Shown here one piece after another: positions 14,364-49,730 of a stretch of DNA of 64,000 bases. A program made the translations under genes and the position numbers. Every line of letters starts with the position of its first letter. The first letter of the stretch is position 1. This DNA comes from an uncultured Methanomicrobiales archaeon. GTDB lineage: Archaea; Halobacteriota; Methanomicrobia; Methanomicrobiales; Methanospirillaceae. The notes below the pieces were generated by a model. It saw only the letters and a program-made list of their open reading frames with translations. It searched no databases and was not told the origin of the DNA. Where the stretch lies: NCBI GenBank assembly GCA_903926075.1, contig CAIYHQ010000074.1, forward strand, positions 1 to 64,000, read 5' to 3'.

Positions 14364-14443
14364 ACTAATGAAATAAAAAACGAGAATGTTTATCTCTTAA
14401 GTCTGTGTAAATCCATATATCAAAGATTAGAGGTTTGAGAACA

Positions 14444-16156
14444 ATGAAATGGATATTGTTTACTGGAATTTTTCTAATCCTTATTTTTGCAGGTATTCAA
14501 GTCGTATCTGCAGAAATTGGAATAGGAGCAAAAGGAATTGAGGCAATACCAGATCAAAACACCTACTATTTTCAGGTTAATTGTAATGTGGAAGGTGCGA
14601 CGGTCTATTTTACTGATTTAAACGGAGTAGAATCCTATGAAGGGGTTATCACGAATGGTCAACTAAGGGTTATGGTAACCGGTAAGACGATGAGGTCATA
14701 CCGTGTAACTGCCGATGGATACAAACCATACCTGGGCACGATCACTTCGTATCCACTCAATGGCGGAGTTATAGCTTTATATGCGACACTTACCCCACTT
14801 CTGCCAACCCAGACTCCGACGCTGATAGGTGGGAACACAGGTTACTATCTTGTCCACACCAATGTTGATTTCGCAAAAGTCTATTTTACTGATGTTAACG
14901 GTATTGAGACTTATGAAGGGACTACCAATAACAAAGTACTCAGGGTGATGGTCTATATCACTGCAACTCCTTTCAGATCGTACAGGGTTGAAGCAAGCGG
15001 ATACCAATCTTACACCAATAGCATATACTCAGTTCCCTCTTCAGGTTCGACGGTGGACCTTTGGGCAACGCTCGTACCTGTAACACCAACGCCAACTGTG
15101 ACAAGTGATGGTGGAAGTACCGGATACTTTGAAGTCGATTCTAACGTTGATGGTGCAAAAGTCTACTTTACTGATGTAAACAGTGTAGAAACCTTACAAG
15201 GTACAATTGCAAATGGCGAACTTACTGTAAGGGTGTATCTGACAGCAACACCGTATAAATCATACAGGGTTGCTATGGACGGATATGTCCCGTATACTGC
15301 ATCGATACCAGCCTATCCAACAGTCGGGGCAACAGTAGTTCTTCAATCAAACCTTATTCCGATAACACCAACACCAACGCTGATAGGCGGTTCACAGGGT
15401 TCTTTCCTTGTTAAAAGCAATGTGAATGGTGCATCAGTGTACTTCACCGACGTGAGTGGCGTTGAGACACAGCAGGGTACAATTGCAAATGGCCAGCTTA
15501 TTGTGACCGTTTATCTAACCGCGACACCTTACAAATCTTACAGGGTCTCTGCAACGGGCTATAATTCAGCCACAGGAAAAATTACAACATATCCAACTTC
15601 AGGTGGTACTGTTACTATTACAGCAAACCTTAAAGCAGTCACACCCACAAAAACGCCTGTTGGTGGAGATTATGGTTACTATGCAGTATTCTGTAATGTA
15701 AATAATGCAAAAGTCTACTTTGATGACAAGCTTGTAGGAACAATTAAGGGTAACAGCCTTCTTGTCAAGGTATACACAACTGCTACGCCGTACACGACTT
15801 ATAGGGTTGAAGCTTCCGGATACCAGCCTGCATCAGGAGATATTCCTAGTGTACCTGGAAAGGGTGAAGTCGTTTCTATTGATGTTATACTTCAAAAGAA
15901 CAATCCCATAGGCGGTTCAGTAGGTTATTACATTATCACAACAAATGTCCCGGGTGCAAATGTTTACTTTGACAACAAACTCATGGGTACAACAACAAAT
16001 TATGGTCTTGTAGTACCGGTGTATCTGACAGGTACCCCATATAAAACTCTAAAAGTTACAAAATCCGGATATACGGCATTTACAGAGTCGTTTTCAGATA
16101 TCGGAATTCCTGATGCCGACGGCTATCTTGAGGTCCCGGTAGTTTTGCAAAAATAA
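14444..16156 (+). CDS. Exported six-repeat surface protein (PEGA-like repeats)
   Basis: A 570-residue exported protein. It has a signal peptide (hydrophobic residues about 3-22, ending VVSA), followed by six repeats of about 85-95 residues. Each has the frame GYY.V.(T/S)NV.GA.VYF.D, then a turn, then (T)ATP(Y/F)(K/R)SYRV.A.GY, and ends in a hydrophobic strand. Repeats are joined by Thr/Pro linkers such as TPTPT. No C-terminal anchor is seen. The repeats resemble PEGA-type beta domains. I prefer the ATG at 14444, with GAGGT nine bases upstream, over the TTG at 14435. A TATA-like CATATATC is at about 14411-14418. A cell-surface structural or binding role is inferred. Confidence 0.8.
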   Translation: MKWILFTGIFLILIFAGIQVVSAEIGIGAKGIEAIPDQNTYYFQVNCNVEGATVYFTDLNGVESYEGVITNGQLRVMVTGKTMRSYRVTADGYKPYLGTITSYPLNGGVIALYATLTPLLPTQTPTLIGGNTGYYLVHTNVDFAKVYFTDVNGIETYEGTTNNKVLRVMVYITATPFRSYRVEASGYQSYTNSIYSVPSSGSTVDLWATLVPVTPTPTVTSDGGSTGYFEVDSNVDGAKVYFTDVNSVETLQGTIANGELTVRVYLTATPYKSYRVAMDGYVPYTASIPAYPTVGATVVLQSNLIPITPTPTLIGGSQGSFLVKSNVNGASVYFTDVSGVETQQGTIANGQLIVTVYLTATPYKSYRVSATGYNSATGKITTYPTSGGTVTITANLKAVTPTKTPVGGDYGYYAVFCNVNNAKVYFDDKLVGTIKGNSLLVKVYTTATPYTTYRVEASGYQPASGDIPSVPGKGEVVSIDVILQKNNPIGGSVGYYIITTNVPGANVYFDNKLMGTTTNYGLVVPVYLTGTPYKTLKVTKSGYTAFTESFSDIGIPDADGYLEVPVVLQK

Positions 16157-16242
16157 CAAGCAAAATCTAACAAATTTTTCGATCCTTTTTTAAGCACAAA
16201 TATACTTCTATTATTAATGATTTCTTAATAGAGGATGGAAAT

Positions 16243-18411
16243 TTGAGAAAAACTGTTGCAAGAACTGGCTATAATGATATACTAAATATCCTCATTCTCA
16301 TCACTCTTGCTAGTTTATTTATCATAATCAATGGAAATGCAGTTTCACTATTCGCTGATAACTTATCAACAGACCTCCATGGTACAGTGAATTTCAAAAT
16401 TCAGGATATGTCTGATATTGAAGAAAAAAGTATTATCTGGTTCTTTGATGGTCATGTGGATGTTAATAATAATGGAAAATCAAGTCTGGATTATGTATTC
16501 AACCATCCTGGAGATTATTCAGTACTCGCAAGATACAAAGCAAAGAACGATGAGAAAGGTGGCGAGACAAACGCAATACGGATTCATGTTAATAGTCCTC
16601 AGTTTAAACTTCTCGTTCCAGACAGTACGACACTTATTTCTAATACCAAATTTACTGCACTATCTTTACCACAGGGATTCAATATTGCTTGGGACTTTGG
16701 GGATGGTTCATTCGCAAAAGAGACAGTTGCAAGCCATTCTTATATAAAGCCAGGAATATACTCAATCAATGCTACGTTTTATGATATATTTAACAACGAA
16801 TTCATGCTTTCACGACAAATAAAAGTTTATCCCCTGGCAAAATGGTATGAAAAAATATTAAGCGTGAATTCAACATCAGGGGGACAGGTTAAATTTATAG
16901 ACGATTCCCCGGGTAGTGTTTCCGGATGGCTATGGAATTTTGGTGATGGTGAAAGTTCTACAGAGAAATCACCTGTGCACACTTACAAGAGATTAGGGAC
17001 ATACAGTGCCAGTCTTATAGTCACAAAAGACGGACTCACAAGCACAAACGAAAATGAAAAAAATGTTGTAATATTCAATTCAATCGAGGAGATAAATGTT
17101 AATCCGGTTCAGCCGGAACCAAATACACCAGTAACCGTATCTGTTGATATAGCGGATGATTACAAGGATAAAGTGAATTATATAAGATATCAGTGGGGTG
17201 ACAGCAGCCCTGATGAATATGGCACACAGGGTCCAGATTTTCAGAGCTCACATACGTACAACTGGGAAGCTATCTTTACCCTTACTATTGTATCATACGC
17301 TGTAGGGAGTTCTGACCCTATTGATATAGTAAAGATACCAATAAAAGTCTATAAAAAAACAACTCCCTCTTCAGACTTTGAAGCGATTCCAAAACAGAAT
17401 GGAGTGGCCCCGTTTCCAGTAAAGTTCAAAGTAAAACTTGATGAAAAGGGAAGTAATCTGCCTACCGGATACGTTTGGAATTTTGGAGACGGTAGTTCTC
17501 TCTCTTCGGAAGCATCACCATTGCATACCTATGAAAAACTTGGAGTTTATACTGTCGACCTCTGGACTACTAACGAAAAAGGTAACAGTAATACGACGAA
17601 AAATGGATTTATCCTTGTTGGTGACCCCCCAAATAATCCTTGTGATTTTACCGCAATTCCTGATACAGTCTATCCAGGAGAACCGGTGCAGTTTATTGAT
17701 ACTTCAATTGCTGAACATAACTCAAATTACTGGTCTTTTGGTGATTCTTCCGAAGATAATTCCAATGAGATGAATCCGGTTCATGTTTATAAATCAGCGA
17801 ATCCTGAGGGGTATAATGTCTATCTTAATATTTACAAGGATGGCAGAATTGTAGGCACGAGCCCTATAAAAAAGATAATCGTTAAGCAGCGAGAGAAAAA
17901 TGACTCAAATTTTTACCTCCTTTTAAAACCAGGGTGGAACCTGGTCTCAACTCCATTAAAGTTGGCAAAAGGATTCGATAACATAGAGAGATTATTTAAA
18001 AATACCGATATGGAAAGTCACTCGGTTTTTCAATATAACCCTGTTACAGGTTGGAAAGTAATGAAAGGAACAGACATACTCCATCCACTTGACGCGGTGT
18101 GGGTTTACTCAAATACTACAACTAATGTAGACCTCTATTTTGAAAATCGCCAGAATATTATTCAAACTGATAAAAACCTAACTGAAGGCTGGAACATGAT
18201 TGGTGCTTCGGGGGTCGAATCTTTTTCTGTTACTGACTTTTTAAGCCAGTTACAAGGTAACTGGACAACTCTATATTATTTTGATGCTGATAAAAGGGCA
18301 TTCCAAGCAATCCTAAAAAACAGTATTGGAAATGCTAAAGTTAACCCGGGTGAAGGATACTGGATATATGCCAATGGGCAAGGAACAATTAAAGAAATAA
18401 ATATAACCTGA
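16243..18411 (+). CDS. Exported PKD-repeat surface protein
   Basis: A 722-residue exported protein starting with TTG at 16243, after GAGGATGG. The hydrophobic N-terminal segment (about residues 12-33) is a signal peptide or anchor. About six PKD-type beta domains follow, recognisable by WxFGDG cores (WDFGDG, WNFGDG, YQWGDS, WNFGDG, YWSFGDS) and H(T/V)Y motifs. The C-terminal part has two copies of a GWN(L/M)xxxP-like domain (GWNLVSTPL and GWNMIGASGV), which is common in archaeal surface proteins. It ends without a membrane anchor, and the next gene, five bases on, encodes a small anchored protein. It is probably a cell-envelope or adhesion component. Confidence 0.8.
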   Translation: MRKTVARTGYNDILNILILITLASLFIIINGNAVSLFADNLSTDLHGTVNFKIQDMSDIEEKSIIWFFDGHVDVNNNGKSSLDYVFNHPGDYSVLARYKAKNDEKGGETNAIRIHVNSPQFKLLVPDSTTLISNTKFTALSLPQGFNIAWDFGDGSFAKETVASHSYIKPGIYSINATFYDIFNNEFMLSRQIKVYPLAKWYEKILSVNSTSGGQVKFIDDSPGSVSGWLWNFGDGESSTEKSPVHTYKRLGTYSASLIVTKDGLTSTNENEKNVVIFNSIEEINVNPVQPEPNTPVTVSVDIADDYKDKVNYIRYQWGDSSPDEYGTQGPDFQSSHTYNWEAIFTLTIVSYAVGSSDPIDIVKIPIKVYKKTTPSSDFEAIPKQNGVAPFPVKFKVKLDEKGSNLPTGYVWNFGDGSSLSSEASPLHTYEKLGVYTVDLWTTNEKGNSNTTKNGFILVGDPPNNPCDFTAIPDTVYPGEPVQFIDTSIAEHNSNYWSFGDSSEDNSNEMNPVHVYKSANPEGYNVYLNIYKDGRIVGTSPIKKIIVKQREKNDSNFYLLLKPGWNLVSTPLKLAKGFDNIERLFKNTDMESHSVFQYNPVTGWKVMKGTDILHPLDAVWVYSNTTTNVDLYFENRQNIIQTDKNLTEGWNMIGASGVESFSVTDFLSQLQGNWTTLYYFDADKRAFQAILKNSIGNAKVNPGEGYWIYANGQGTIKEINIT

Positions 18412-27076: not shown

Positions 27077-29524
27077 TTAATAAGCGATTTGCATAATAAT
27101 TGCAGGAACTCTTGTTATCTGTCCGGGGTTGATGTAAACAGGATATGTTCCTGATACATAGCCTTTCTTCTGAACGAGAATTTTGTGCAGTCCCAGATCA
27201 AGATCATTTACAAGGATGGGTGTTGTCCCGACTGAGACATCATCAATCAGCAATTCAGCACCCGCCGGCATTGTAAATACTGCAAGAGATCCTGTTGTAG
27301 GCGGTTCCGGCCGTTCTCTTTCAAGGAGCACCTGGGAAACCTGGGTGAGGGAATTCTGTTCAACCCAGGCAGGACCCTCGTAATCGACATAACCAGTCAA
27401 ATGCAACCTTATAAGGTGGTATCCGGGATTTATTGCATTTAGATAAGAAGGTGTAGTTCCGGCATAGCTGTCATCAATATAAAGATCGGCACTGGTCGGT
27501 GTTGAACTCACAGAGAGTGCGCCATTTTTTGGAATTGTTAAATCAATCGTTGTGGTTACTGTCTCTGCCTGACCAACGTGTACAGCGTTCGAATATTGAT
27601 CGTATGTATCTTTTTGTGCAAGGAGTGTATGCCAGCCAGGGGATACACCTGTAAACGTGTTTGGTGACGTTAATACTAATGCCCCATCAAGTGTGACTTT
27701 GGCTCCTGCAGGATTTGTAATTACCTGTATTGTTCCACTTGCAGGGTTCAACCTGCCATTTATTGTAACGGTCTCCCCTACTTTGGGATTTCCATAATAG
27801 GTATTCTTCCAGTCATCATATCCCGCAAGAGACAGAACAATTGCATGGTTTGGATTTCCGGTTGAACTGACCTGGACCTTTACTGGTCCTGTACCCACAT
27901 CAGTTCCATCAAGATTTACTTTCGCACCTGAAGGGATGGAATCAATCAGGAAATATCCCATCTGACCAGTGGAGGTCTGAGTAGGTGTAGGGGTTACAGG
28001 AGTTACTGTAGGGGTTGGGTTTGTAGTAGGCTGAAGTTTGGCGGTCAGTACTTTGACTTCCTGTGCCTTGAGGTCTACACTTGTAGTATAGTCATTGTAT
28101 CCAGACATCTGTAGTGTAATAGTATTGGTTCCGGCAGCTACATCCCATAATATAAGAGGAGATGAACCCTGATAGATACTATTTAAATAAACATCTGCCA
28201 ACTGTGGTTGAGATTCAATAATAAGAACCCCGGTCTTTGAAGGTGTGGAACTGGGTTTTAGAGTTACAATTATTGTTGAAGTTTTTCCTTTTGTTACAGT
28301 TACCTTCTGGCTTGTGTCAACATATCCACTCAGTTTAACAGCAAGTGTATGTGAACCCGGCTGAACATTGGTTATATCAAGGGTGTCATCCGGCCATGTC
28401 TGACCTTTAAATACTGAATCCAGGAAAACTGCTGCACCGGGGGGAACCGATGAGACCTCAATACTTCCTGTTGTTGGATCTACTACTGTGTCAAGTTTAA
28501 CATCAAGTGTATTCTGGCCAGGGTCAAGAACAACCTTGTCAGTCCAGTCCTGATATCCTACCTTCATGAACTCAACGAAGTGGTTACCAGGGGAAAGCCC
28601 GCCTACAGTCAGAGGTGTAAATCCAGCATATAATTGATCAATAAAAACGTCTGACCCAACCGGATTCGAAGTTAAAGTCAACTGGCTTGATGTTGATATA
28701 GGGGTCAGATATTCATATTCAATCTGAGTATCCCCTGCTACTACGTTTGAATAAGTACTAAATGTGTAATAACCCTTCTTTGCATAATTTAAAACATGCC
28801 ATCCGGGTTCCACTCCAGTGAAGAAGTCAGGGGTAGTAATCCTTTTCCATCCGTCCAGCGTCACAGTAGCACCTGATGGGTCAGTGAATACACCTATTGA
28901 ACCTTTTGTCGAACTTTCTGCTACTAAATTTGCTGAAACAGTAGTTGTTTTATCCACAGCAGGTGGAGCAAACTTCTGGGACCAAATCTGATACCCTTTC
29001 TTTAGAACAAGTATAAGGTAGTCCTCAGTCTTACTACTTGGTACCTGAACTTTTACAGGTGTCTTTCCTTTACTATCAAAATCAATATAGACATCTGCAC
29101 CGGAAGGTGTGGATTTAATATCAAAAGTGCCGTTTTTCCCTGAAGGTTGTGGAACAACCTTCGTAAGTGCCGCATATATGTTTATTGTATCTCCAGGCCA
29201 GGGATTCCCTGCAACCTGCCTTACCCAGGGATAATATCCATCTTTCGTTACAATTATAGTATGACCCGGAGTTCCGGTGGTTGAGACCCTGACGGTAATC
29301 GGGGTTACGCCCTGATTTATCCCGTCAAAGTTTACGCTTGCACCGGATGGTTCGGATTCTATTAGATAATACCCGCTTCCTCCCGTTTGTGCAAGAGAAG
29401 ACTGGCCAAAAATTAAAGTCTGGTTATTCCAGTCTGTGGTCTTGTTCTCAGATGCTGCAACATAACCAAAAAACATTGCAACAATTATGAGAGTGATCTG
29501 GGCAACAATCAAATTTCGCGACAT
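27077..29524 (-). CDS. Exported protein of ten PEGA repeats
   Basis: An 815-residue exported protein. After the signal peptide (about residues 5-25) it is built from ten PEGA-type repeats of about 65-75 residues, with cores such as GSIEVSSVPPGAAVFLDS and G.TP..V...PG.H.(I/V)....GY. A Thr/Pro linker (TPTVTPVTPTPTQT) separates repeats 1-6 from 7-10. No anchor is visible at the C-terminus. PEGA domains occur in surface-layer-associated proteins, where they are thought to bind or span the wall. It is a single-gene unit with its own promoter and terminator signals. Confidence 0.85.
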   Translation of the reverse strand: MSRNLIVAQITLIIVAMFFGYVAASENKTTDWNNQTLIFGQSSLAQTGGSGYYLIESEPSGASVNFDGINQGVTPITVRVSTTGTPGHTIIVTKDGYYPWVRQVAGNPWPGDTINIYAALTKVVPQPSGKNGTFDIKSTPSGADVYIDFDSKGKTPVKVQVPSSKTEDYLILVLKKGYQIWSQKFAPPAVDKTTTVSANLVAESSTKGSIGVFTDPSGATVTLDGWKRITTPDFFTGVEPGWHVLNYAKKGYYTFSTYSNVVAGDTQIEYEYLTPISTSSQLTLTSNPVGSDVFIDQLYAGFTPLTVGGLSPGNHFVEFMKVGYQDWTDKVVLDPGQNTLDVKLDTVVDPTTGSIEVSSVPPGAAVFLDSVFKGQTWPDDTLDITNVQPGSHTLAVKLSGYVDTSQKVTVTKGKTSTIIVTLKPSSTPSKTGVLIIESQPQLADVYLNSIYQGSSPLILWDVAAGTNTITLQMSGYNDYTTSVDLKAQEVKVLTAKLQPTTNPTPTVTPVTPTPTQTSTGQMGYFLIDSIPSGAKVNLDGTDVGTGPVKVQVSSTGNPNHAIVLSLAGYDDWKNTYYGNPKVGETVTINGRLNPASGTIQVITNPAGAKVTLDGALVLTSPNTFTGVSPGWHTLLAQKDTYDQYSNAVHVGQAETVTTTIDLTIPKNGALSVSSTPTSADLYIDDSYAGTTPSYLNAINPGYHLIRLHLTGYVDYEGPAWVEQNSLTQVSQVLLERERPEPPTTGSLAVFTMPAGAELLIDDVSVGTTPILVNDLDLGLHKILVQKKGYVSGTYPVYINPGQITRVPAIIMQIAY

Positions 29525-38500: not shown

Positions 38501-40003
38501 TCACTTCCCGACTGCAATTCGTCTGCGCATAATACATGGGCCGTTTCTCACTCCGCCTATTGGATTATTGGGTTTTCCTAGTGAATTCATGCACCGCCCC
38601 ATTAATGCTGCTCCCCTGGCAAGGCCATCATCAACAAAAACAAGGTGATCATTTGGTTTATCAAATAATTTTCTTTCAATAATCCCGTCAAGGATGTATT
38701 GTGGTTTCTTTCCTGATATTGCTGCCCTTCCTGTGAATCCAATTGAAGAATTAGGAAAGAGGAGACCTTCTTCCTTAACAACGTCTATAAGTCTTAAGGC
38801 CATGTCTGCGCAGACATTATCAATAACTTCACGGAGCATACCTATCCCATGATTTAACTGAATCTCACGGCCAATCTCTTTTAATTCATCAAGTCCACTT
38901 CCATTCACTCCGGCATCACAACCCACCATTGCAACCCCGGACTCTTTTGCAACTTTTGCATAGACTGGAACACGGCCAAACTTGGTTCTTTCAGGAGGAA
39001 CTATCCGGATATCAATAAATTTGTTGCATCTTTTAACGAAATCTATAACATCATCACTCTTTCGCTTAAATTTATAACCGCCGTCTCTTGCAGTACTATC
39101 ACCAAAAATATCAAGTGCTGTCCCGGTATGCGACTCGACGAGATTTGTACCTTTCACAATAGCGTCAGGGATAGCTCCCGCGAGACCACAGAAATTTCCA
39201 ACAGTTTTTGCAAAAGGATTTCTCTCATTTTCACTTAAATCTCCGGTTATCCTTCCGTCAAGGGTAGTGCCAAAATCGATTGAGATGCAGGGGTTTCGAA
39301 AATCAACAGTAGTCCACTTTGCCCCTTCTTTAATTCCGGCCATTGCAAGTTCACCTTCCATTTCGTTTGCTACCATTTCGACTCCGGTGCTCCCGACCGG
39401 CGGAATAACTCCTGCTACAGCGCCAATAAATACAACCTTGTCGGCAAAACTAAAAGGCTGGATTTTTTCAGACTGATTAGCTTTGGACATGGGCGGTGTC
39501 ATCTTGCGAGGAGGAACACCTGCAAGGAGGCACCCGTTTGCAAGTGCTATGACAAAATCTCCGACCTGGTCCGGGGAGTCCATGGCAGCAACAACTCCGG
39601 TACTTCGAACAACAAAATCAAGGTCTTTTTGTATGTCGAGGTGAACTTCTCTATGACAATCAATTAGGGTACCTTTTACAAGTTCAGTTACTGACTCCTG
39701 TGTAAGTTTTGTACCATCAAGAGTTTCTCCAAAAATCTCCTCGCCTGGTTTGGGTTTCCTTACATCACGACTCATTTTTACGGTTTTATTTATTACATAG
39801 CTCATTCCGGTTTCGAGGTTGACTCCTGTCAGGATACATTTTGTTGTAGTATTGCCCATCTCAACTGAGGCCACAATGAAGTAAGGTTTCACCTTATATT
39901 CCGGAATATTCATACCTGCCCCATGGGCTATCTGGGGTGGTGCCGGACTTTCAACGATATGAGGTTTTAATCCTATGAATCTGCTAAAGAAACTGCCGCT
40001 CAT
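38501..40003 (-). CDS. Putative methanogenesis marker protein 14 (DUF2114)
   Basis: A 500-residue protein matching the DUF2114/marker 14 family as I recall it, restricted to methanogens. ASKHA-like ATPase elements are visible: VASVEMGNTTTKCILTG near residues 44-60 and SIDFGTTLDGRITG near 239-252, plus VFVDDGLARGAALMG near the C-terminus. Corrinoid-activating proteins of the RamA/RACo class belong to the same superfamily, so an ATP-dependent activation role is possible. The substrate is unknown. Confidence 0.8.
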   Translation of the reverse strand: MSGSFFSRFIGLKPHIVESPAPPQIAHGAGMNIPEYKVKPYFIVASVEMGNTTTKCILTGVNLETGMSYVINKTVKMSRDVRKPKPGEEIFGETLDGTKLTQESVTELVKGTLIDCHREVHLDIQKDLDFVVRSTGVVAAMDSPDQVGDFVIALANGCLLAGVPPRKMTPPMSKANQSEKIQPFSFADKVVFIGAVAGVIPPVGSTGVEMVANEMEGELAMAGIKEGAKWTTVDFRNPCISIDFGTTLDGRITGDLSENERNPFAKTVGNFCGLAGAIPDAIVKGTNLVESHTGTALDIFGDSTARDGGYKFKRKSDDVIDFVKRCNKFIDIRIVPPERTKFGRVPVYAKVAKESGVAMVGCDAGVNGSGLDELKEIGREIQLNHGIGMLREVIDNVCADMALRLIDVVKEEGLLFPNSSIGFTGRAAISGKKPQYILDGIIERKLFDKPNDHLVFVDDGLARGAALMGRCMNSLGKPNNPIGGVRNGPCIMRRRIAVGK

Positions 40004-40080: not shown

Positions 40081-41529
40081 TTAATCATTCTTTTTTTCTT
40101 TTCCTGTGACATCACGGCAACTACCGATAATTCCTGTAAACTCACCTTCATCATTAAAATATGGTGTTTTGGTGACTTCAAGAATTTTTTGGATCTTATC
40201 AATAATAATCTTTGTTTCAAATTTCTGGGCAGTGTGACTTTCCTTCGCTTTTTTGTCTGAATCAAGGGCAATTTTCTCAAACTGGATGACTTGACCCTTT
40301 GCTTTAAGTTCTGAAATTATCTCAATATCCGTTTTTTTGGAGCATTCGTCTTTTTTTGAAAGGAAAATATTCATCGAATATGGCTCACTTAAAAAAGTGT
40401 ACCTGAAATCCTTGTCCTTATAATAGACCATCTCTTCAAGCTGGTCTGCCATGATATTCAGGATCTTGCCCCTTTCAATATATTTGTTCTCATAAATTGT
40501 TCTTTCGGTAATATCTACCCCGACACATAGATATTCGCCAGGTATTCCTTTCTTGTTGAATATCGGCTTTATTGTCCAGGCAATGAAACGCTTTCTACCT
40601 GTCCCGTCAGTATTTTCAATTTTAAAACTCGTTTCCTGTTCAGGATTTTCAGCTGACCTTCCAATTTGGTCTTTAAATACATCTCCCTCTTTTGAGTTTG
40701 TTTTAAAGAGTACTCCTGAAAAACTATGACCTGTAACTAATTCGGGATCATCGATTCCAAAAAACGACTGTGTGTATTCATTCACAAACTGAACTTTGGC
40801 ATCCTTCGAAAGTCTGACTATGAGGCTGTTTGAATTTTCAACAAGTTCTCTGTACTTCTCTTCGCTCCGTTTAAGCAGCTTTTTTGATTTTTTATGTTCA
40901 GAAACTTCATATAGGAGTGTCTTATTTAGTTGAAGGAGTTCCATTGTTCTTTCTTCAACAAGTTGTTCAAGATAGAGCTGGTACTTTTTAAGTTCAGTGA
41001 TATCCTCAAATATGACACCAATCCCTTTTTCTCCACGGTCAAAAACAATTGGAAGTAGTTTTATCCTGAAAAAGTATTCCTCGTCACCTACCTCAATAAC
41101 CTCCTCTATGACTTTTTCATTTCCCTTGAGAGCATTCCTTATCCTCTCAAGGTGCCTGGGACTGAGATATGCCATTAGCGGGGTAAAGTCAATTTTTCTC
41201 CCTACCACATCCGTCCTCTTTAGATGAAAAACTTCAAGCAGTGGATTATTTACTTCCTGAATGAAGAACTCTTTATCGATAAGGAGGATAAGATCTGATG
41301 ATAACGATAATAGATTTGAAATTGGGACTCTCTGTGAAAGATTGTATATTTTTGCCCTTCCATATGTCCTCATCTCCACATGACCTGATATAAGAAGTGT
41401 ATTTAGGTATTTCGCAGTTGATGCTCTTGAAAGTGGTATTTTTTTGGATATTTCTAGAATTGTAAGACCTTTTGGATACTTTTCAAGAATCTTTCTTATA
41501 TTATTGAGTTCCTGTTCTTCTTCAATCAT
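40081..41529 (-). CDS. HTH-PAS regulator with three PAS domains
   Basis: A 482-residue cytoplasmic protein. Residues 1-70 form a winged helix-turn-helix (IRKILEKYPKGLTILEISKK ... ASTAKYLNTLLISGHVE), followed by PAS domains at about 72-190, 225-345 and 355-480. Each ends in a typical DxTE or DVTG segment (IFEDITELKKY, VGVDITERTIY, SCRDVTGKEKK). There is no kinase domain, so it is probably a ligand-sensing transcription factor, not a two-component sensor. Such HTH-PAS proteins are frequent in Methanomicrobiales. Its target is unknown. It sits next to, but separate from, the end of the acs operon. Confidence 0.75.
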   Translation of the reverse strand: MIEEEQELNNIRKILEKYPKGLTILEISKKIPLSRASTAKYLNTLLISGHVEMRTYGRAKIYNLSQRVPISNLLSLSSDLILLIDKEFFIQEVNNPLLEVFHLKRTDVVGRKIDFTPLMAYLSPRHLERIRNALKGNEKVIEEVIEVGDEEYFFRIKLLPIVFDRGEKGIGVIFEDITELKKYQLYLEQLVEERTMELLQLNKTLLYEVSEHKKSKKLLKRSEEKYRELVENSNSLIVRLSKDAKVQFVNEYTQSFFGIDDPELVTGHSFSGVLFKTNSKEGDVFKDQIGRSAENPEQETSFKIENTDGTGRKRFIAWTIKPIFNKKGIPGEYLCVGVDITERTIYENKYIERGKILNIMADQLEEMVYYKDKDFRYTFLSEPYSMNIFLSKKDECSKKTDIEIISELKAKGQVIQFEKIALDSDKKAKESHTAQKFETKIIIDKIQKILEVTKTPYFNDEGEFTGIIGSCRDVTGKEKKND

Positions 41530-41707: not shown

Positions 41708-42463
41708 TTAAAAGGAATTCAGTAACTGAAATTCCGAAAGAAATCTTCCGGTAAAGTTGTGTACTGCCTGCCTGGCTGGAGATAATTCATTTATATCTGC
41801 AACAGGGAGATTCTCAAGATCAAACCGAAGTAATTCCTTGTCTTCAGGGATACAGGTCCAGGCTTTATCAAAACAAAATTGTCTTGTTTCGTCAGTAACC
41901 CGGTTCATTATTAACAAGATATTTTCACTTTTAAGGCCAAAATCTATTACAATATTACGTATCCTGTCAGCAGTCCGAAGTCCCCTTGCCCCAGGATCAG
42001 TTACAATTAGAAGAATATCAGGACTTCGGACAGTTCCACGCGCAAAATGCTCCATACCGGCTTCAGTATCCACAACTATAAACTTGTATTCTGACTCGAG
42101 TCCACGCATGCTGGTTGTTAGAAGGTCATTAGCAAAGCAATAACAGCCTGCTCCGGGCGGTCTTCCCATTGAAATGAGATCAAAGCCGATAGATTCAACA
42201 AGTACCTGCCGAAAACGGAGATTAATATATTCATTCCTTGACATCCCATGAGGGATACTCTTTGTAAATGCCTCTTCCCTCATAGAACCGAGAGATTCTA
42301 TTACATTGACACCCAATGCCTCGTGAAGATTTGAGTTGGGATCAGCGTCCACTGCAAGGACCGGATGAATACCCCTGTAAATTAATTCTTTTATAAGTAA
42401 CGCACTAATTGTTGTTTTTCCGGTGCCCCCTTTCCCAGATAGAGCAATTACAAACGGTCTCAT
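41708..42463 (-). CDS. cooC: CooC/AcsF-type nickel-insertion ATPase
   Basis: A 251-residue MinD-family P-loop ATPase. It has the deviant Walker A SGKGGTGKTT at residues 9-18, AVDADPNSNLHEALG, and VDTEAGMEHFARGT. CooC proteins load nickel into CO dehydrogenase, and the related AcsF loads it into acetyl-CoA synthase. Since this operon has acsB but no CO dehydrogenase, an AcsF-like role is the better inference. It overlaps the upstream gene by four bases and is the last gene of the operon. Confidence 0.85.
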   Translation of the reverse strand: MRPFVIALSGKGGTGKTTISALLIKELIYRGIHPVLAVDADPNSNLHEALGVNVIESLGSMREEAFTKSIPHGMSRNEYINLRFRQVLVESIGFDLISMGRPPGAGCYCFANDLLTTSMRGLESEYKFIVVDTEAGMEHFARGTVRSPDILLIVTDPGARGLRTADRIRNIVIDFGLKSENILLIMNRVTDETRQFCFDKAWTCIPEDKELLRFDLENLPVADINELSPARQAVHNFTGRFLSEFQLLNSF

Positions 42464-43494
42464 GATGTAAAAGAATGGATACTCTCTGAAACCGCATTTG
42501 TACTTTCCATTATATCAATTGCGGTCTCCTCGTCAGCAAGACGAATTCCACATGTCGGAGTGATGAGCGACTGTCTGTCAAAAAGATCTGAGGGTATTGT
42601 CTCAATGGCACGTTCACGAATGCTTTGAAAACGCTGGATTAATCGATCAATAGTCTCTTTCCTAAAGACTTCCCCTTCAGAAGGCACAACCCCCCATGCA
42701 ATAACACCACCGTTCCTCATAAAATCCAAAATTTTATCCCTATAAAGCAGGAATTCATTTGCATTTGTATACGCATCAAATGAGAGAACAGCAGGTTTTA
42801 ATGAGAGTACAAATTCCCAGTCAGTATTCGCGCAACAGTGCACACCAATTGCACCTTTTAGTGTAGTTACGATTTCAGTAAAGCCTTCTCTTACCTGTTC
42901 TTTATCCAGAGGCACAACTGAAGACCCAAGTGAGGCATAATACGGTTCATCCATCACAATAAGTGTTTCATCGACTCCGGTCCTTTCACGAATTGCATCT
43001 TCTGCAGCACGAGCTCTTAATGCAATAAGTTTTGGAAGCATATCGGCTAGCTCAGGGTCGTAAAGGATAGGCTTTCTTTCTCTGTCCACAACCTGCATGC
43101 CAAAAGTAACCGGGCCGGTGAGTTGAAATTTTAAAGCAATAATATCCTGAAAGTTCCTGGACAGCATGTTGTCAAAACACGAATAATAATCTGGTGTCGG
43201 AAGATATGGAATGAAATTTTTCCCTAGGAAATCCTCATATATTTTGGCTATGTCATTTGTAATGTCTCTGGAGCGGTCAATTAAAAGCCGTTCTTCTTCT
43301 ATTATTTTCCCTGGCAGATGTTCAGAATCTGAAAACACAATTCTTTCAAGAATTCCACGTTTTGGAAGTGTCGGGATGTATGGAAGCCTCTGACAATACT
43401 TCCTTACGACATCACACGCAATATCTGGGTCAATAAAAGGAAGAGAACCAACCCCTGTTGTTGCCCCCCTGGGGGACGCTAATATTTTATTCAT
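42460..43494 (-). CDS. Core MetE-type methionine synthase (folate-independent)
   Basis: A 344-residue protein matching the C-terminal catalytic barrel of MetE, without the N-terminal half found in folate-dependent enzymes. The zinc-site elements are GVHCCANTDW (HxC) and the late Cys in TPTCGIRL. TTGVGSLP begins the barrel. Such core proteins take methyl groups from corrinoid proteins. Its place after the corrinoid protein and its activator suggests the CFeSP as donor. I place the start at the ATG at 43494 (MNKILASPRGA), eight bases inside the acsV end, not at the longer frame start at 43659. Confidence 0.75.
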   Translation of the reverse strand: MNKILASPRGATTGVGSLPFIDPDIACDVVRKYCQRLPYIPTLPKRGILERIVFSDSEHLPGKIIEEERLLIDRSRDITNDIAKIYEDFLGKNFIPYLPTPDYYSCFDNMLSRNFQDIIALKFQLTGPVTFGMQVVDRERKPILYDPELADMLPKLIALRARAAEDAIRERTGVDETLIVMDEPYYASLGSSVVPLDKEQVREGFTEIVTTLKGAIGVHCCANTDWEFVLSLKPAVLSFDAYTNANEFLLYRDKILDFMRNGGVIAWGVVPSEGEVFRKETIDRLIQRFQSIRERAIETIPSDLFDRQSLITPTCGIRLADEETAIDIMESTNAVSESIHSFTS

Positions 43495-45406
43495 CAATCT
43501 TGTCTCCTGTCTGTAATCTGCATAGATTGATTGTTTTTTCAACAAGCGGAAAGAGGCTAAGGTCAGTATGCGGAAGAAAAGTACTTCGGGTATACTCATC
43601 CATAAATGCCGGTTCAGCATTGAGTTCAATATACCCCATCTTCTGTGCAATAGAATCAAGGGTTTTTCTTTTTTTCCTGCTTAATAGTGCGATATTAGCC
43701 CCTTCCACTGCACCATTACCGATATTATAAATCTGATTGAGTGGAATTTCAGGGATTAGCCCAATTATTATTGCATTCTCTTTATTGATGTAATTGCCAA
43801 AAGCTCCAGAGAAATAGATTTTACCAATATTTTCCCTAGTAATTCCTGCCATGTTTAAAAGAATAGTACATGCAGCAAGAACTGATGCCTTGCTCATTAT
43901 AAGGTTTTTAACATCATTCTCAGTGATTACTATGTCTTTCCCTAAACCGGTCTCATGTTCCCATGCAACGACATATTCATAAAAATGAGTGCCTTTTCTT
44001 ATTCTGTCATTATTTATAACAGAATTTATTCTCCCAGTCCTGTCTATAATACACGCCTTAAAAAGTTCAGCGAGCAGGTCAATTAAACCTGAACCGCAGA
44101 TCCCTTTGGGTTTAATTTGATTAATAGTACGATATACCGGAGAAAGTGTATGAGGATCTATTTTGATCTCTTCAATTGCACCTGGATTTGCACGCATTCC
44201 GAAAAGCACTTCGCCACCTTCAAGTGCAGGACCTGCTGCTCCTGCACATGAAAACATCCAGTCCCGATTTCCGAGCACTATTTCAAAGTTTGTGCCGATA
44301 TCTATCATTAGTGCGATTTCATCTGATTCAGACATTCCGGTTGCAAGGACATCCGCAACTATGTCACCTCCGATAAAATCAGAAACAGAAGGAAATACAA
44401 AGAGTGCAGCCCTTGGGTTTACTTTTATCCCGGCCCTCTCTGTTCCTGTCGTAAGATAGCGCCTGACAACAGGCACATAGGGTTCGGCAATAATGTATCC
44501 AGGATTAATCCCAAGGAGCAGATGAGTCATGACGGTATTTCCGGCTACAACCACTTCATATATGTCATGAGAATCAATTCCTCCATTTCTTACAGCTTCA
44601 GCAAGTACTGCATTGATACTATTAGATGCGAGTTGCTGAAGATCATTTAGTCCCCCTTCCTTCTTGGCATAATTGACCCTGGAAAGAATGTCTTCACCAT
44701 AACTTATCTGCTGGTTGTAATTTGATGCAATTCCAACTATCGCTCCATCAATGAGATTTCTTATATATACAACAATAGTTGTAGTACCAAGGTCGATAGC
44801 AGCTCCATATACTGCATAAGAGGTGTCACCTTTTTCAAGGTCTATAAGGCGGTAAACTCCAGGAATATGAGCGATGGTAGCAGTGACCCTCCACCCACTT
44901 TCGCGTAATACTGAAGGGACCATGCGGATGATCTCGAGAGGTGCATAGACAAGCTCAGCTTTTGGCCCTCCTTTTTTTTCAACACCCCATAGAAGGCGGG
45001 ATAAATCAGGAGATGGATCATCAAGTGATGGAGGAGGCAGTTGAAGCGGGTACTTGACGACAGAAGGGGATAGTGTCATAACGAGCTCTGACACCTTAAT
45101 TAAAATCTTCTGTTCCTGGACAAGGGACGGCTCTGGTATAAGAACCTGGATATCACTCTCAATGTAAGTTACACACGCAAGACAGGCCCCATCCTCTATC
45201 TCTTTTTTTGAAAGGAATTTTTCAAATTTTTTTTCGTCAAATGAGACAAGTCCAGTCTTAACATATACAATGCATTTCCCGCATTTGCCAATACCTCCAC
45301 AGACCACATTCATGTGAATACCGACTTTCTGGGCTGCTGCGAGGATTGTGCTATGTTCTGCTACTTCAATCTTCTTAAAACTTGGAAGAAATGTGACAGA
45401 TGTCAT
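43487..45406 (-). CDS. acsV: Corrinoid protein reductive activator (RACo/AcsV-like, ASKHA)
   Basis: A 639-residue protein. The N-terminal plant-type [2Fe-2S] domain has CGGIGKCGKC and GACLACV (about residues 36-78). A middle linker is followed by a large ASKHA ATPase-type domain with AIDLGTTTIVVYI, MIDIGTNFEIVLG and GICGSGLIDLL. RACo proteins use ATP to return the oxidised cob(II)alamin of the corrinoid iron-sulfur protein to the active cob(I) state. It overlaps acsC by four bases, which fits that job. Confidence 0.9.
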   Translation of the reverse strand: MTSVTFLPSFKKIEVAEHSTILAAAQKVGIHMNVVCGGIGKCGKCIVYVKTGLVSFDEKKFEKFLSKKEIEDGACLACVTYIESDIQVLIPEPSLVQEQKILIKVSELVMTLSPSVVKYPLQLPPPSLDDPSPDLSRLLWGVEKKGGPKAELVYAPLEIIRMVPSVLRESGWRVTATIAHIPGVYRLIDLEKGDTSYAVYGAAIDLGTTTIVVYIRNLIDGAIVGIASNYNQQISYGEDILSRVNYAKKEGGLNDLQQLASNSINAVLAEAVRNGGIDSHDIYEVVVAGNTVMTHLLLGINPGYIIAEPYVPVVRRYLTTGTERAGIKVNPRAALFVFPSVSDFIGGDIVADVLATGMSESDEIALMIDIGTNFEIVLGNRDWMFSCAGAAGPALEGGEVLFGMRANPGAIEEIKIDPHTLSPVYRTINQIKPKGICGSGLIDLLAELFKACIIDRTGRINSVINNDRIRKGTHFYEYVVAWEHETGLGKDIVITENDVKNLIMSKASVLAACTILLNMAGITRENIGKIYFSGAFGNYINKENAIIIGLIPEIPLNQIYNIGNGAVEGANIALLSRKKRKTLDSIAQKMGYIELNAEPAFMDEYTRSTFLPHTDLSLFPLVEKTINLCRLQTGDKIDE

Positions 45407-46746
45407 TTCGTCTCGCCTGATTGCAATGATTCCAGAAACGTACCTACTTCAGCTGCATCACGAGGGCCGACAAGAATCTTCCAGCCTGTCTCATCCTCAA
45501 GTTTACCTGATATAGGTGCAGCATATCCAGGGATTATTAATGTATGATGGGATACAATATTTGCCAAATCTGCCTTCTTAAGTGTTTCATTAACGAGGGT
45601 ATCGGTTAGTTTGCCGGCTGCAACTGCGGTCAGCACTGAAAGCCCTTCAGTGTCAACAATAAGCATATAACAGGATACTCCCGAACTCTCAAGATATCCC
45701 TGAAGTGTGAAAAAGGTGAGAGAAAAGTTTACAGTCATAAAGACTGGAGAATCTTTTCCGGGTTCCCCTATCTTATAAAGGCCTGGTTCCATCTGGATAG
45801 GACGCTGGGGGTCTGTGTAAATCCCCTGACGGAGGGTCAGTGCCGCCTTTTCAACAGGTTCCGGCAGATCATGAATCACTATCAGGGAGGCGTACTTGAG
45901 AATTCCTAGGTAAAGTGAACCGGATCTATCTTTAAACCGGCCAGTATCAAGATATAACGGATATCCAAGAGATGCATCTTCACGGGTTACAGCTTTTTTC
46001 CTGATAACTGTAAATTTCTTAAGACAATCTGAAAGGTTATCAACGCATGGATCAAGAATGAGGTCAGGAACCCCGATCTTTACACATTCGTTGACAAGTT
46101 CAGGAATTTTTGTAATATCACCTTCACTAATTATCAGCCTGCACCCGAATTTCAATGCAAGTCTGCACATTTCAGGATAGTTTTCCCTGGTTGCAGCATG
46201 AATAACAGGATGATAACTACCGCAATAAGTAAGGCCTGCTTCAACTATTTTTGGATCATTTGAGATCAGTATTTCAGGAAGGGAAACAAGTTCTTCAACC
46301 TTTTTTACTACACTCCCAAATGTTTCAGGATTTTTCGAATCAGAAATTATTGCAACTCCGTTTAACCTGAGGTCCTGACCTGCCCTGACAAGAAGATCTT
46401 TTTCAACCCGATTTGCAATTGTAGAAATTTGTGATTCCCCGGAACTATCCTTTAGGGCCAGGAAAAAACCGGGAGCATGATAAAATGTCTTTTCATGACG
46501 GTATAAACAGGATTCTTCCCCTATCCTGAATGAACGCTCGCCAACACCTATTCTCATCGGTTTTACTGGTGGCTTCGTGGATGACCCTAATACCTCTTTT
46601 GCCTGAGGGTCCAGGTATGGACATTTATCTGGATCTGCCTTTCCAGAGGCTAGTTTCATGGCAAAAGTAAGACATGTCGGGTCTCCACACTCTTTACAGT
46701 TCTTTTTTGGAAGAAGTTTGTAGATGTCAAGAGCTTTGAGGGCCAT
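45403..46746 (-). CDS. acsC: Corrinoid iron-sulfur protein large subunit
   Basis: A 447-residue large (gamma) subunit of the CFeSP. The N-terminal [4Fe-4S] site is KNCKECGDPTC followed by DKCPYLD. The TIM barrel and C-terminal corrinoid-binding domain follow (GVSCYMLIVDTEGLSVLTAVAAGKL). It carries the methyl group that AcsB joins to CO. The ATG at 46746 follows GGAGG and overlaps the acsD stop. A longer frame to 46878 has no support. The archaeal counterpart is CdhE. Confidence 0.93.
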   Translation of the reverse strand: MALKALDIYKLLPKKNCKECGDPTCLTFAMKLASGKADPDKCPYLDPQAKEVLGSSTKPPVKPMRIGVGERSFRIGEESCLYRHEKTFYHAPGFFLALKDSSGESQISTIANRVEKDLLVRAGQDLRLNGVAIISDSKNPETFGSVVKKVEELVSLPEILISNDPKIVEAGLTYCGSYHPVIHAATRENYPEMCRLALKFGCRLIISEGDITKIPELVNECVKIGVPDLILDPCVDNLSDCLKKFTVIRKKAVTREDASLGYPLYLDTGRFKDRSGSLYLGILKYASLIVIHDLPEPVEKAALTLRQGIYTDPQRPIQMEPGLYKIGEPGKDSPVFMTVNFSLTFFTLQGYLESSGVSCYMLIVDTEGLSVLTAVAAGKLTDTLVNETLKKADLANIVSHHTLIIPGYAAPISGKLEDETGWKILVGPRDAAEVGTFLESLQSGETK

Positions 46747-47688
46747 TATATATCCTCCACAGATGGACTTGAAAGGTCTATAATAGCCGTTTTCAGAAGT
46801 TTTATAGTCTCCGGAAGCCTTACGCAGACAATTGATGCACCTGCTACAAGAGATGATAGTGCGGTTCCAAACTCCCACTGGATTGCAGTTTCGTACTTGG
46901 TTTCAGGAGGAGATTCTCTCACTTCCCTGACACCCAGAGTATCAGGGGCTGAACTAATAATAGGCATTGCAAGATCGTCATCACCTTTCAACGCAGCATA
47001 CCTTATTCTTTCAATTGTTGAGTAAGAGTATTCAAAACCGTAACCCAATGCACCTGTGTATGAATCAATTATAATGCTGTTATCCGGCATCCCGGTTTCG
47101 CGTAATAGGATATTGAGTTGTTTTGCGAGGTTAATATCTATTGGAGACTGAGCAATAACTGCATGGTTGTAGGCAATTGCAGCTGCCGCAACCGATCGAT
47201 ATCTGTCGGCTTCAGCAGTTCCAAGTAAAAGTCTTTCACCAGACCCGGCCTCGCCACAATTCAGGAATACATCACTGTCAATTTCCGGTGAATCACTCCC
47301 TTCAATAATAAGTGGAAGAGTAGTTCCAGATAAAATTTCATCAATGACTTTTTTAATTCCAGGGAAATCAGAGAAATGTTTCTTCTTGGTACTTGTCAGG
47401 TATACTCTTATCAGGTCTGCACCCCATTCCATCTCTCCTTTTTTTGCCCATTCAGACACATCAGCCGTTATGTCGGGTAAATTATCCTTGAGAAGTCCTG
47501 GCCAGAACGCTATATCATCACAAATTTCAAGAGCTATCCGTGGTGGGTTTTTTTCAGAAAAAAAAAGGAATATTGGAAGATCCACCAATAGTATAACTCT
47601 TCCCGCGGGTTCCGCCTTCCGATTTAGTCGCACCAATCTTTACAACACCAACCCTACTACTCCACTCATAAGTACCCTTCTCAGCCAT
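46746..47688 (-). CDS. acsD: Corrinoid iron-sulfur protein small subunit, frame interrupted once
   Basis: Small (delta) CFeSP subunit. The real start is the ATG at 47688, five bases from the acsB stop. The first 43 residues (MAEKGTYEWSSR, then GATKSEGGTRGK, then TIGGSSNIPFF) match the family. The frame then stops because a plus-strand A-run at 47558-47566 has nine bases. With eight, the frame continues SEKNPPRIALEICD and runs to 46746 as one protein of 313 residues. The downstream frame alone begins near 47636 with an artificial N-terminus. This is either a sequencing or assembly indel, a recent mutation, or transcriptional slippage. All other features of the barrel appear intact. Confidence 0.85.
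47558..47566 (-). other. Frameshift site in acsD, nine-base homopolymer
   Basis: Nine T on the coding strand. Removing one T restores the full acsD frame. See the acsD entry. Confidence 0.85.
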
Positions 47689-47690
47689 TT

Positions 47691-49730
47691 TTAACCCCCT
47701 ATGAGTGGTGGCATTGAAAGAGCCGGATGCTCTTCTTTTTCCAGGAAGAGGATAAGATCTTCTATTGTTGTTGCATTTTTATCGGTTGAGATTTTATTAT
47801 AGAATGAACTGATTCCCAATTGTTCCAATTTATCAATGAGCCTCTTTCCAAGTTCATCTTTCAGTATTTGAGGGATCCAGACTAGCCTCTTTATTCCACC
47901 CTCTGATTGAAGGAAACGGTCACTAAGGATATATCCTTTTGAAATACCCATAAAACCCGGTGTCTGGGCACCTCCCCCAATTGTTCCGGCAAGTGTCGAG
48001 AATGACATCCCGGATGGAGTTTCACCTTTATAATCCCGGTTAACGACCATGATGCCGTTTACTTCTGGTAATATCAGTGCAATACACTCAAAACATCCGC
48101 AACAGGTCATGGGGTACTCCATTATACTATATAGTGAACACCGATCGATTTCCCCATGTGAGGCTTTTCGCACAAAACGGTTTACTTCCTCAAACTCGCC
48201 TTTTAACGCATCAATCACTGCCCCCTTCTGCACAGGCTGATTTGCGCCAGAGGGAGATATTTCATATGCTGTTTTCCCATCCAGCCAGCTGATTGCACCA
48301 CACAGCGCAGAACGCTCCGGGGTAATAATGCATACATGATTTGGAGCAAATGTCTGGCAGAGTGTACATGAATAAAAGAGTTGTACATCCGTGTCTTTCA
48401 TTCCTGCAACTCGTTCGTCTCTCTCCATGTAAATTTTCTCTGCCTCCTTTTTTTCAAGGATCACCTTTGGTTCATCAGTTATCAGTGTCACCTGGACTGC
48501 ATCTATGAGTGATGGAAAGTCCATTTTAAATTTCAAAGCAAGTAACTTACCAATATGCTCAATTTTCAGTCCCTTTAGAACTGCCTCTTTTGTGAGCCTC
48601 ACCCATATCAGGTCCCTCTGGGCTACATGCCATGAACCTTCTCCATAATTTACGAAATTATGTATTCTTCGCTCAAGGACCGGTTCAAAGTCCTTTTTCA
48701 TTTGCTCTCCCGCTACTTCGATAATTATTGCAAGGGAAGATGCGGACCCTTCTTTTAACTGGGAAATTTCAGGGCCTATTACTGTAACTTTTCCATCAAT
48801 AACCTCTTCTTTGGGTTTCATCGTCAGAAGTTCAAATGCCTCTTTTTTTCCCCCTCCAAATTCAACGTACATCTCCTCCCGTCGAATACTTTTTCCCTCA
48901 AATGCAGGTGAACAGGCCATGGGAATTGGAATCGCAGTAACCATAACTTTAATTCCACGTAATTCCATCCCTTTTTGGACAATATTTTCCGGGGAAGCAC
49001 GAATCCAGTTTTCGCCCTCATACCCCTTGTAATAGAGTATTGGAATTCCAAGTGGACGTAAGGCATCAATAAATGCTATCTCTTCAGGAGACAGTCCGGG
49101 TAATGCTATAACAAAGGCTTTTGCGCGTTCCTCGGCATAACGGAGCAGGCGGGAAGGGTCTCCGGGTGCCACTCCTCCAAACATCATCGCGACCCGTGCG
49201 AGTATATCTACAAAGTGAATTCCACTTAAAGTATCAGGGCCAAGAGGGACAAGTCTGTAACCAAGTCCTATCTTGACTCCTTCATTGTCCAGTCCCTTCG
49301 CAATATCTCCCGCGAGAAATGTTAAAAGCAGTTTTTCCTGAAGTTCACGTGCTATCCCTGAAACTATGCCTGCTTCACTAGCCTTTCCTGCAATGAGGGC
49401 AAGGCCGAGAATACTCCCATCAACTAAAGAGTACCCAAGCTTTCGTATTACAGAATCCCCTATAAAACCTGTATATATACTATTATCAGCAGTTGAGCCT
49501 GCAACCGACCCTGCGGCAACAATTGCTTCAGTTGCAACGAGCAGGCTGTCAGATGTCGCTTTATATGCAATTTCTGCATCCTCGCCTGAATTTACTTCTT
49601 TTCCAGTAAGTGAGTATGAGACAGGGAGATGGTATGCGGTCTCCCCATAACCCACTAAAACCTTTATATCTGCAAGTTTCTTTTCAAGGATTTTTTTACC
49701 TTCTGTCAATGATTGAGTAATATCTACCAA
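47691..49730 (-). CDS. acsB: Acetyl-CoA synthase, bacterial-type long form
   Basis: A 679-residue acetyl-CoA synthase. The A-cluster ligands are present: Cys455, 458, 467 and 477 for the FeS cube (YSCTLCQTFAPNHVC, then SALCGAISW) and the Cys544-Gly-Cys546 nickel motif (TCCGCFEC). Archaeal CdhC proteins are about 470 residues and lack the N-terminal domain. This one has about 300 extra N-terminal residues, as in bacterial AcsB, where that domain contacts CO dehydrogenase. It starts with TTG at 49730 after AGGAGG. It makes acetyl-CoA from CO, CoA and the methyl group of CFeSP. It is the first gene of the operon. Confidence 0.9.
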   Translation of the reverse strand: MVDITQSLTEGKKILEKKLADIKVLVGYGETAYHLPVSYSLTGKEVNSGEDAEIAYKATSDSLLVATEAIVAAGSVAGSTADNSIYTGFIGDSVIRKLGYSLVDGSILGLALIAGKASEAGIVSGIARELQEKLLLTFLAGDIAKGLDNEGVKIGLGYRLVPLGPDTLSGIHFVDILARVAMMFGGVAPGDPSRLLRYAEERAKAFVIALPGLSPEEIAFIDALRPLGIPILYYKGYEGENWIRASPENIVQKGMELRGIKVMVTAIPIPMACSPAFEGKSIRREEMYVEFGGGKKEAFELLTMKPKEEVIDGKVTVIGPEISQLKEGSASSLAIIIEVAGEQMKKDFEPVLERRIHNFVNYGEGSWHVAQRDLIWVRLTKEAVLKGLKIEHIGKLLALKFKMDFPSLIDAVQVTLITDEPKVILEKKEAEKIYMERDERVAGMKDTDVQLFYSCTLCQTFAPNHVCIITPERSALCGAISWLDGKTAYEISPSGANQPVQKGAVIDALKGEFEEVNRFVRKASHGEIDRCSLYSIMEYPMTCCGCFECIALILPEVNGIMVVNRDYKGETPSGMSFSTLAGTIGGGAQTPGFMGISKGYILSDRFLQSEGGIKRLVWIPQILKDELGKRLIDKLEQLGISSFYNKISTDKNATTIEDLILFLEKEEHPALSMPPLIGG

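Follow-up and report, generated by a model that had tools for sequence, protein, structure and literature searches.

What does an acetyl-CoA synthase (ACS) do when the conserved genes around it include no source of CO? The question arises from a 64-kb stretch of DNA (the window) on contig C74 of a Methanomicrobiales metagenome-assembled genome (MAG), in which a six-gene operon, acsB-acsD-acsC-acsV-(core metE)-cooC, lies on the minus strand at positions 41708-49730. The operon is real: all six genes, tightly packed, are where an earlier reading of the sequence alone had placed them and in the same order, and from acsD through cooC successive genes overlap by 1-8 bases. No gene for carbon monoxide dehydrogenase (CODH) and no acsE methyltransferase gene was found in the window, as that sequence-only reading had noted, nor in the final 6.7 kb of the contig. 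We suggest, with moderate confidence, that its products work as a CODH-independent acetyl-CoA decarbonylase, a relay of methyl groups to a thiol, most simply homocysteine, as in Dehalococcoides.

Distribution and gene order among Methanomicrobiales

The module is carried by many hydrogen-using methanogens. A scan of GTDB genome contigs yielded 79 loci, all with titles that name Methanomicrobiales, a group within it, or Euryarchaeota without further specification. The comparison of gene order proposed in the earlier reading gave a uniform picture: all 54 loci holding both acsB and cooC contained the six genes in an identical arrangement. The CODH gene cooS was present downstream in three (L033, L041, and L090) of the 25 loci that reached at least 4 kb beyond cooC.

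Co-occurrence was assessed in 135 near-complete Methanomicrobiales genomes, 63 with bacterial-type AcsB and 72 without. The gene for the MesB-like protein (the core metE) was found in every one of the 63 and in none of the 72; a 20-bit match in G048 was its MesA and was not counted. The presence of the AcsB and MesB-like genes varied inside seven genera (g5, g7, g9, g12, g19, g20, and g21); thus, the two have been gained or lost as a pair, and repeatedly. The sequence-only reading had left a choice between CO supplied by an enzyme encoded elsewhere and an operon mainly handling methyl groups, and this perfect co-occurrence makes the second the better supported.

We observed no association of the operon with CooS: of the 63 genomes with the operon, 37 have CooS, and of the 72 without it, 47 do (Fisher p=0.48, p-values being uncorrected for the relatedness of genomes). 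CdhC of the archaeal acetyl-CoA decarbonylase/synthase (ACDS) was present in 31/63 and 10/72, respectively. Ten operon genomes had neither cooS nor CdhC, Mo-type CODH not having been searched for (G033, G040, G042, G049, G060, G081, G083, G085, G112, and G131); one of them, G033, is a single contig and 99% complete. The lack of association with CooS and these ten genomes argue that the unit has no need of CODH. CO from an enzyme encoded elsewhere is possible in the present host, where CdhA is encoded on contig C128, but appears not to be required.

Two further ideas were set aside. CooS as a hidden partner was unsupported by the co-occurrence data, though the gene is adjacent in three loci. 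We also dropped the proposal that the operon explains the undefined role of Cdh in Methanospirillum hungatei JF1 (PMC4704411), as G120, which we guess to be hungatei-like, has CdhC and no AcsB.

CODH and methyltransferase genes elsewhere in the host genome

The host MAG (3.14 Mb, 97% complete) was searched for CODH genes, as the sequence-only reading had advised, with PF03598 and PF03063 among the profiles. Contig C128 carries a complete archaeal ACDS, cdhA-cdhB-cdhC-cdhD-cdhE (cdhB scoring slightly below the cut-off); after this ACDS (L003 14615-18033) come genes for a RACo-like protein and two CooC-like ATPases. The host genome holds two complete ACS systems, separately maintained. Contig C131 (L095 6699-8119) bears a decayed cooS with a cooC fragment: about 130 N-terminal codons of cooS are followed by a frame change, a loss of some 350 codons, the C-terminal part, and the piece of cooC. 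The CooS of G095 matches both cooS pieces at 73-74% identity; there is a small chance that the break is an assembly error. CODH is missing from the operon, not from the cell, and the sole intact CODH is that of the archaeal ACDS on C128. The idea that the whole cell has no CODH was rejected, given cdhA on that contig.

AcsE was not found anywhere in the genome, the only protein with the pterin-binding domain PF00809 being dihydropteroate synthase. With AcsE absent, methyl groups would enter or leave the conserved unit at two points, AcsB and the MesB-like protein. The MesA methionine synthase is encoded on contig C52. Acetyl-CoA synthetase family genes were present in 11 of 11 genomes tested, i.e., the host and the ten with neither cooS nor CdhC; in G085 the gene is split across contigs, with pieces individually below the cut-off.

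Origin and sequence changes of AcsB

The acsB gene (47691..49730, minus strand) encodes an acetyl-CoA synthase of 679 aa (NF040764, 889 bits against a cut-off of 800). Its upstream context reads GTAGGAGG, followed by a TTG start. In a maximum-likelihood tree of 36 different sequences, in which two PDB sequences and a record from Acetoanaerobium stood for the bacteria, the CdhC clade was split from AcsB at 100/100. The window AcsB fell on the AcsB side, apart from CdhC, together with the bacteria and another archaeal group. The AcsBs of Methanomicrobiales grouped together (91/98), and the branching among them tracks the families in rough outline; therefore, the gene is old in this order. Both the tree and the N-terminal domain support the view that the window AcsB is of bacterial type, and the bacterial origin suggested for it earlier is one possible reading of a tree with three bacterial sequences.

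The N-terminal domain is fused to the A-cluster core and aligns along its length with solved AcsBs, so the earlier statement that AcsB retains this domain holds for the domain as a whole. What has degenerated is its first segment: the window AcsB scored 23.2 bits for PF18537 (CODH_A_N), under the cut-off of 32.2. Scores ranged from 17 to 23 bits in AcsBs of Methanomicrobiales, compared to 80-105 bits where a CODH is encoded alongside AcsB. Locus L090, which has an adjacent cooS, shows the same degenerate segment. We infer from the sequences that this segment may be the contact site for CODH. A 16-residue N-terminal stretch (aligned to positions 85-100 of the Carboxydothermus protein) is also missing in AcsB of Methanomicrobiales and present in the bacteria and in f7, an archaeal family of the same phylum (G135, G144, G153) in which a bacterial-type AcsB is encoded directly behind a CODH gene.

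The six A-cluster cysteines, Cys455/458/467/477/544/546, including the CGC motif, are invariant in 79/79 sequences, the window copy among them. Five CO-alcove residues are listed for Moorella (PMC11321310). Four of them (Gly99, Val103, Phe184, and Phe461 in the window AcsB) are conserved, while the fifth, Ile146, is replaced by Tyr in all 79 Methanomicrobiales sequences (Tyr100 in the window) and is Ile or Val in the compared bacteria and f7.

Two side observations concern loci where ACS and CODH genes stand together. In the f7 loci L112-L114 (G153, G135, and G144, respectively), the order is acsA-acsB-acsD-acsC, while acsV and cooC face the other way; the CODH gene is intact here (TIGR01702, 729 bits in L112). 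The record NZ_CP154629.1 of Acetoanaerobium noterae (L111), which bears acsA...acsB, was submitted as 'plasmid pTPELB2' but at 2.63 Mb has the look of a chromosome.

The MesB-like core MetE

The core metE gene (42460..43494, minus strand) has an over-long start in the list of open reading frames (ORFs), and the ATG at 43494 was taken as its start. The 344-aa product is predicted to be a corrinoid-dependent thiol methyltransferase from its zinc ligands, its modeled fold, and a profile match to MesA. Sequence searches gave no Pfam or PDB match. For an AlphaFold2 model with a predicted local distance difference test score (pLDDT) of 94.6, the top Foldseek matches were the cobalamin-independent methionine synthases MetE 1t7l and 1xdj (E 1e-8); MesD 3rpd was matched as well, and the uroporphyrinogen decarboxylase fold, which is the fold of coenzyme M methyltransferases, appeared among the matches. 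The protein has a single MetE catalytic domain fold and no folate-binding half.

The zinc ligands H219, C221, D240, and C315 are invariant in 54/54 homologs; their spacing is 2/21/96, compared to 2/21/97 for the MesB positions given in PMC7857596. The predicted homocysteine-binding residues, Ser17 and Asp182, are both kept in the window copy; Asp182 was placed by profile alignment to MesA and Ser17 by the common TTxVGSxP motif.

A MesB-like protein annotated as hypothetical was also seen on a plasmid of Desulfosarcina ovata (L126 8971-9999, NZ_AP021877.1). It has no acs genes nearby; its neighbors are nitric-oxide/hydroxylamine genes (nitric-oxide reductase, norR, hcp, and FprA).

Other genes of the operon and its surroundings

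The remaining genes are also all on the minus strand. The acsD gene (46746..47636, 296 aa, NF003376 above cut-off) and the acsC gene (45403..46746, 447 aa, NF003195 515 bits against a cut-off of 306) code for the small (delta) and large (gamma) subunits of the corrinoid iron-sulfur protein (CoFeSP). The best solved relatives of AcsD are bacterial CoFeSP small subunits; AcsC, which has a 4Fe-4S motif, was best matched in the PDB by the gamma subunit 2h9a of bacterial CoFeSP. The GTG start of acsC in the ORF list is too early, as the family match starts at the ATG at 46746. The acsV gene (43487..45406, 639 aa) encodes a RACo-like reductive activator, with four RACo/Fer2 Pfam domains and RACo structures 3zyy/4c1n as the closest solved ones, although its NF040756 score of 574 bits is under the cut-off of 800. 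RACo is the ATP-dependent activator of CoFeSP. The cooC gene (41708..42463, 251 aa) encodes a MinD-type ATPase with a CxC motif (GCYC); with CooC1 (3kje) as its nearest solved structure, it is a plausible candidate for a nickel chaperone.

Beyond cooC, the window contains genes for a PAS-domain protein (40081-41529) and for methanogenesis marker 14 (mmp14, 38501-40003). The mmp14 gene is found downstream of the operon in several relatives; an adjacent cooS, where present, sits between the operon and mmp14, as in L090 and in L091, a fuller stretch of the L041 contig. Several large proteins at 14435-18411 and 27077-29524, with PEGA/PKD-like repeats seen by eye, are probably surface proteins.

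A predicted methyl relay and its alternatives

The conserved unit has one putative thiol methyltransferase but no CO source and no enzyme for methyl transfer from a pterin; read most economically, it would relay the methyl of acetyl-CoA to a thiol and set CO free. Acetyl-CoA would be supplied from acetate by acetyl-CoA synthetase. AcsB, with CooC possibly helping to load its nickel, would split acetyl-CoA, releasing CoA and CO; the freed methyl would move to AcsCD, held in the Co(I) state by AcsV, and the MesB-like zinc enzyme would pass it to a thiol, most simply homocysteine to give methionine. The CO may leave the cell or be oxidized by CooS or ACDS where these are present. Since the passage of a methyl from a methyl-corrinoid onto a thiol is favorable, this step could pull the reversible ACS reaction toward cleavage.

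Several observations weigh against this proposal. MesA, the ordinary methanogen methionine synthase, is present in 132 of 135 genomes, the host included, so the operon is not required for methionine as such. Methyl-tetrahydromethanopterin (methyl-H4MPT) is plentiful in methanogens, and cleaving acetyl-CoA for its methyl group looks wasteful. Across the homologs, the homocysteine-binding residues are mostly replaced (Ser17 is kept in 12/54, Asp182 in 8/54, and both in 7/54). Finally, a CODH gene beside the operon, which the sequence-only reading had named as evidence against its own claim, is absent here, but three relatives do have an adjacent cooS, about 2 kb downstream.

The alternative that survives best, though we consider it unlikely, is a second system for acetyl-CoA synthesis: CO would come from CdhA, CooS, or the environment, AcsCD would itself take the methyl from methyl-H4MPT, AcsB would synthesize, and the MesB-like protein would only draw off some methyls. 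CdhA in the host genome, CooS in over half of the operon genomes and beside the operon in three, the high affinity of ACS for dissolved CO (PMC12289521), and the four retained alcove residues are all consistent with synthesis. Yet CooS is unassociated with the operon, and both cooS and CdhC are missing from ten genomes that carry it; the host genome has no AcsE; and the CODH_A_N segment is degenerate, with the alcove Ile146 changed to Tyr throughout. Synthesis also leaves the inseparability of MesB and AcsB unexplained.

A less probable alternative keeps the relay and changes its end: in most hosts the terminal enzyme would be no methionine synthase, and would exchange methyls between CoFeSP and another thiol, e.g., coenzyme M, interconverting acetyl-CoA (with or without CO) and methyl-coenzyme M or a different methylthiol. 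Methionine is already covered by the near-universal MesA, and the residue losses suggest that some members of the group may use a different thiol acceptor. On the other side, the window copy keeps both homocysteine residues, and the nearest folds are methionine synthases even if uroporphyrinogen decarboxylase also appears. It is doubtful, slightly more so than this general form, that in CODH-free hydrogenotrophic methanogens a re-purposed MesB carries acetyl-CoA/CO to a non-methionine methylthiol such as methyl-coenzyme M. If true, this would be a previously unknown carbonyl/methyl shunt joining acetyl-CoA to methanogenesis.

That the operon is a relic of a transferred bacterial CODH/ACS cluster shedding parts, CODH first, and now without important function is very improbable: the decayed cooS-cooC of the host and the patchy distribution would suit it, but the six intact genes in fixed order in all spanning loci, the invariant metal ligands, and the long vertical history of AcsB in the tree do not.

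Relation to known systems

The methyl relay that we favor has its closest parallel in Dehalococcoides, which has no CODH and in which CO accumulates from acetyl-CoA cleavage (PMC6113397). According to two papers (PMC7005905, PMC7857596), the methionine methyl there is derived from acetate, the core methionine synthase MesB is proposed to take it from CoFeSP, and the incomplete Wood-Ljungdahl module of D. mccartyi likewise has AcsB, AcsCD, and a core MetE/MesB with no CODH and no AcsE. The present system differs in that its six genes, acsV and cooC among them, make up one conserved operon, and its hosts are methanogenic archaea that have MesA as well, often together with ACDS or CooS; its AcsB has its own deletion and the Ile-to-Tyr alcove change, and most MesB-like copies are without the canonical homocysteine-binding residues. 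Whereas the D. mccartyi host is CODH-less, the window genome has CdhA, and ten of its relatives have neither cooS nor CdhC. In some methanogens, according to Price et al. (2021), mesB shares an operon with acsC and acsD, and certain Methanomicrobiales have both MesA and MesB; the passages of that paper on methanogen operons say nothing of the absent CODH, the bacterial nature of the linked AcsB, CODH-free hosts, or residue loss (PMC7857596).

Bacterial CODH/ACS systems (Moorella, Carboxydothermus, C. autoethanogenum) share the three-domain AcsB, the A-cluster, CoFeSP, a RACo-type activator, and CooC; the operon described here has no AcsA/CooS or AcsE, and the CODH_A_N segment of its AcsB is degenerate. 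Archaeal ACDS (CdhABCDE) performs the same chemistry, and the host copy on C128 comes with its own RACo-like protein and CooC. However, CdhC has no N-terminal domain of ~265 residues and forms the separate clade, and cdhA and cdhB lie outside the window.

In the literature consulted we found no account of the linked bacterial AcsB as CODH-free, of CODH-free hosts, or of the AcsB and MesB residue changes; Adam et al. 2018, reportedly the main evolutionary study, may describe them. New here are the CODH-free distribution, the remodeling of AcsB, and the variable homocysteine-binding residues of the MesB-like protein.

Implications

ACS genes in methanogen genomes are normally taken as evidence of CO2 fixation. 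The ACS found here in about half of the Methanomicrobiales genomes surveyed has a conserved gene set with no CO source; an annotation as 'CODH/ACS' would therefore wrongly predict autotrophy, where release of CO is predicted instead. The operon also offers a test case of an ACS that has seemingly evolved away from CODH, in which the roles of the N-terminal domain and the CO alcove can be considered without a partner across the CO tunnel. The proposed methyl transfer between MesB and CoFeSP becomes approachable by experiment in methanogens.

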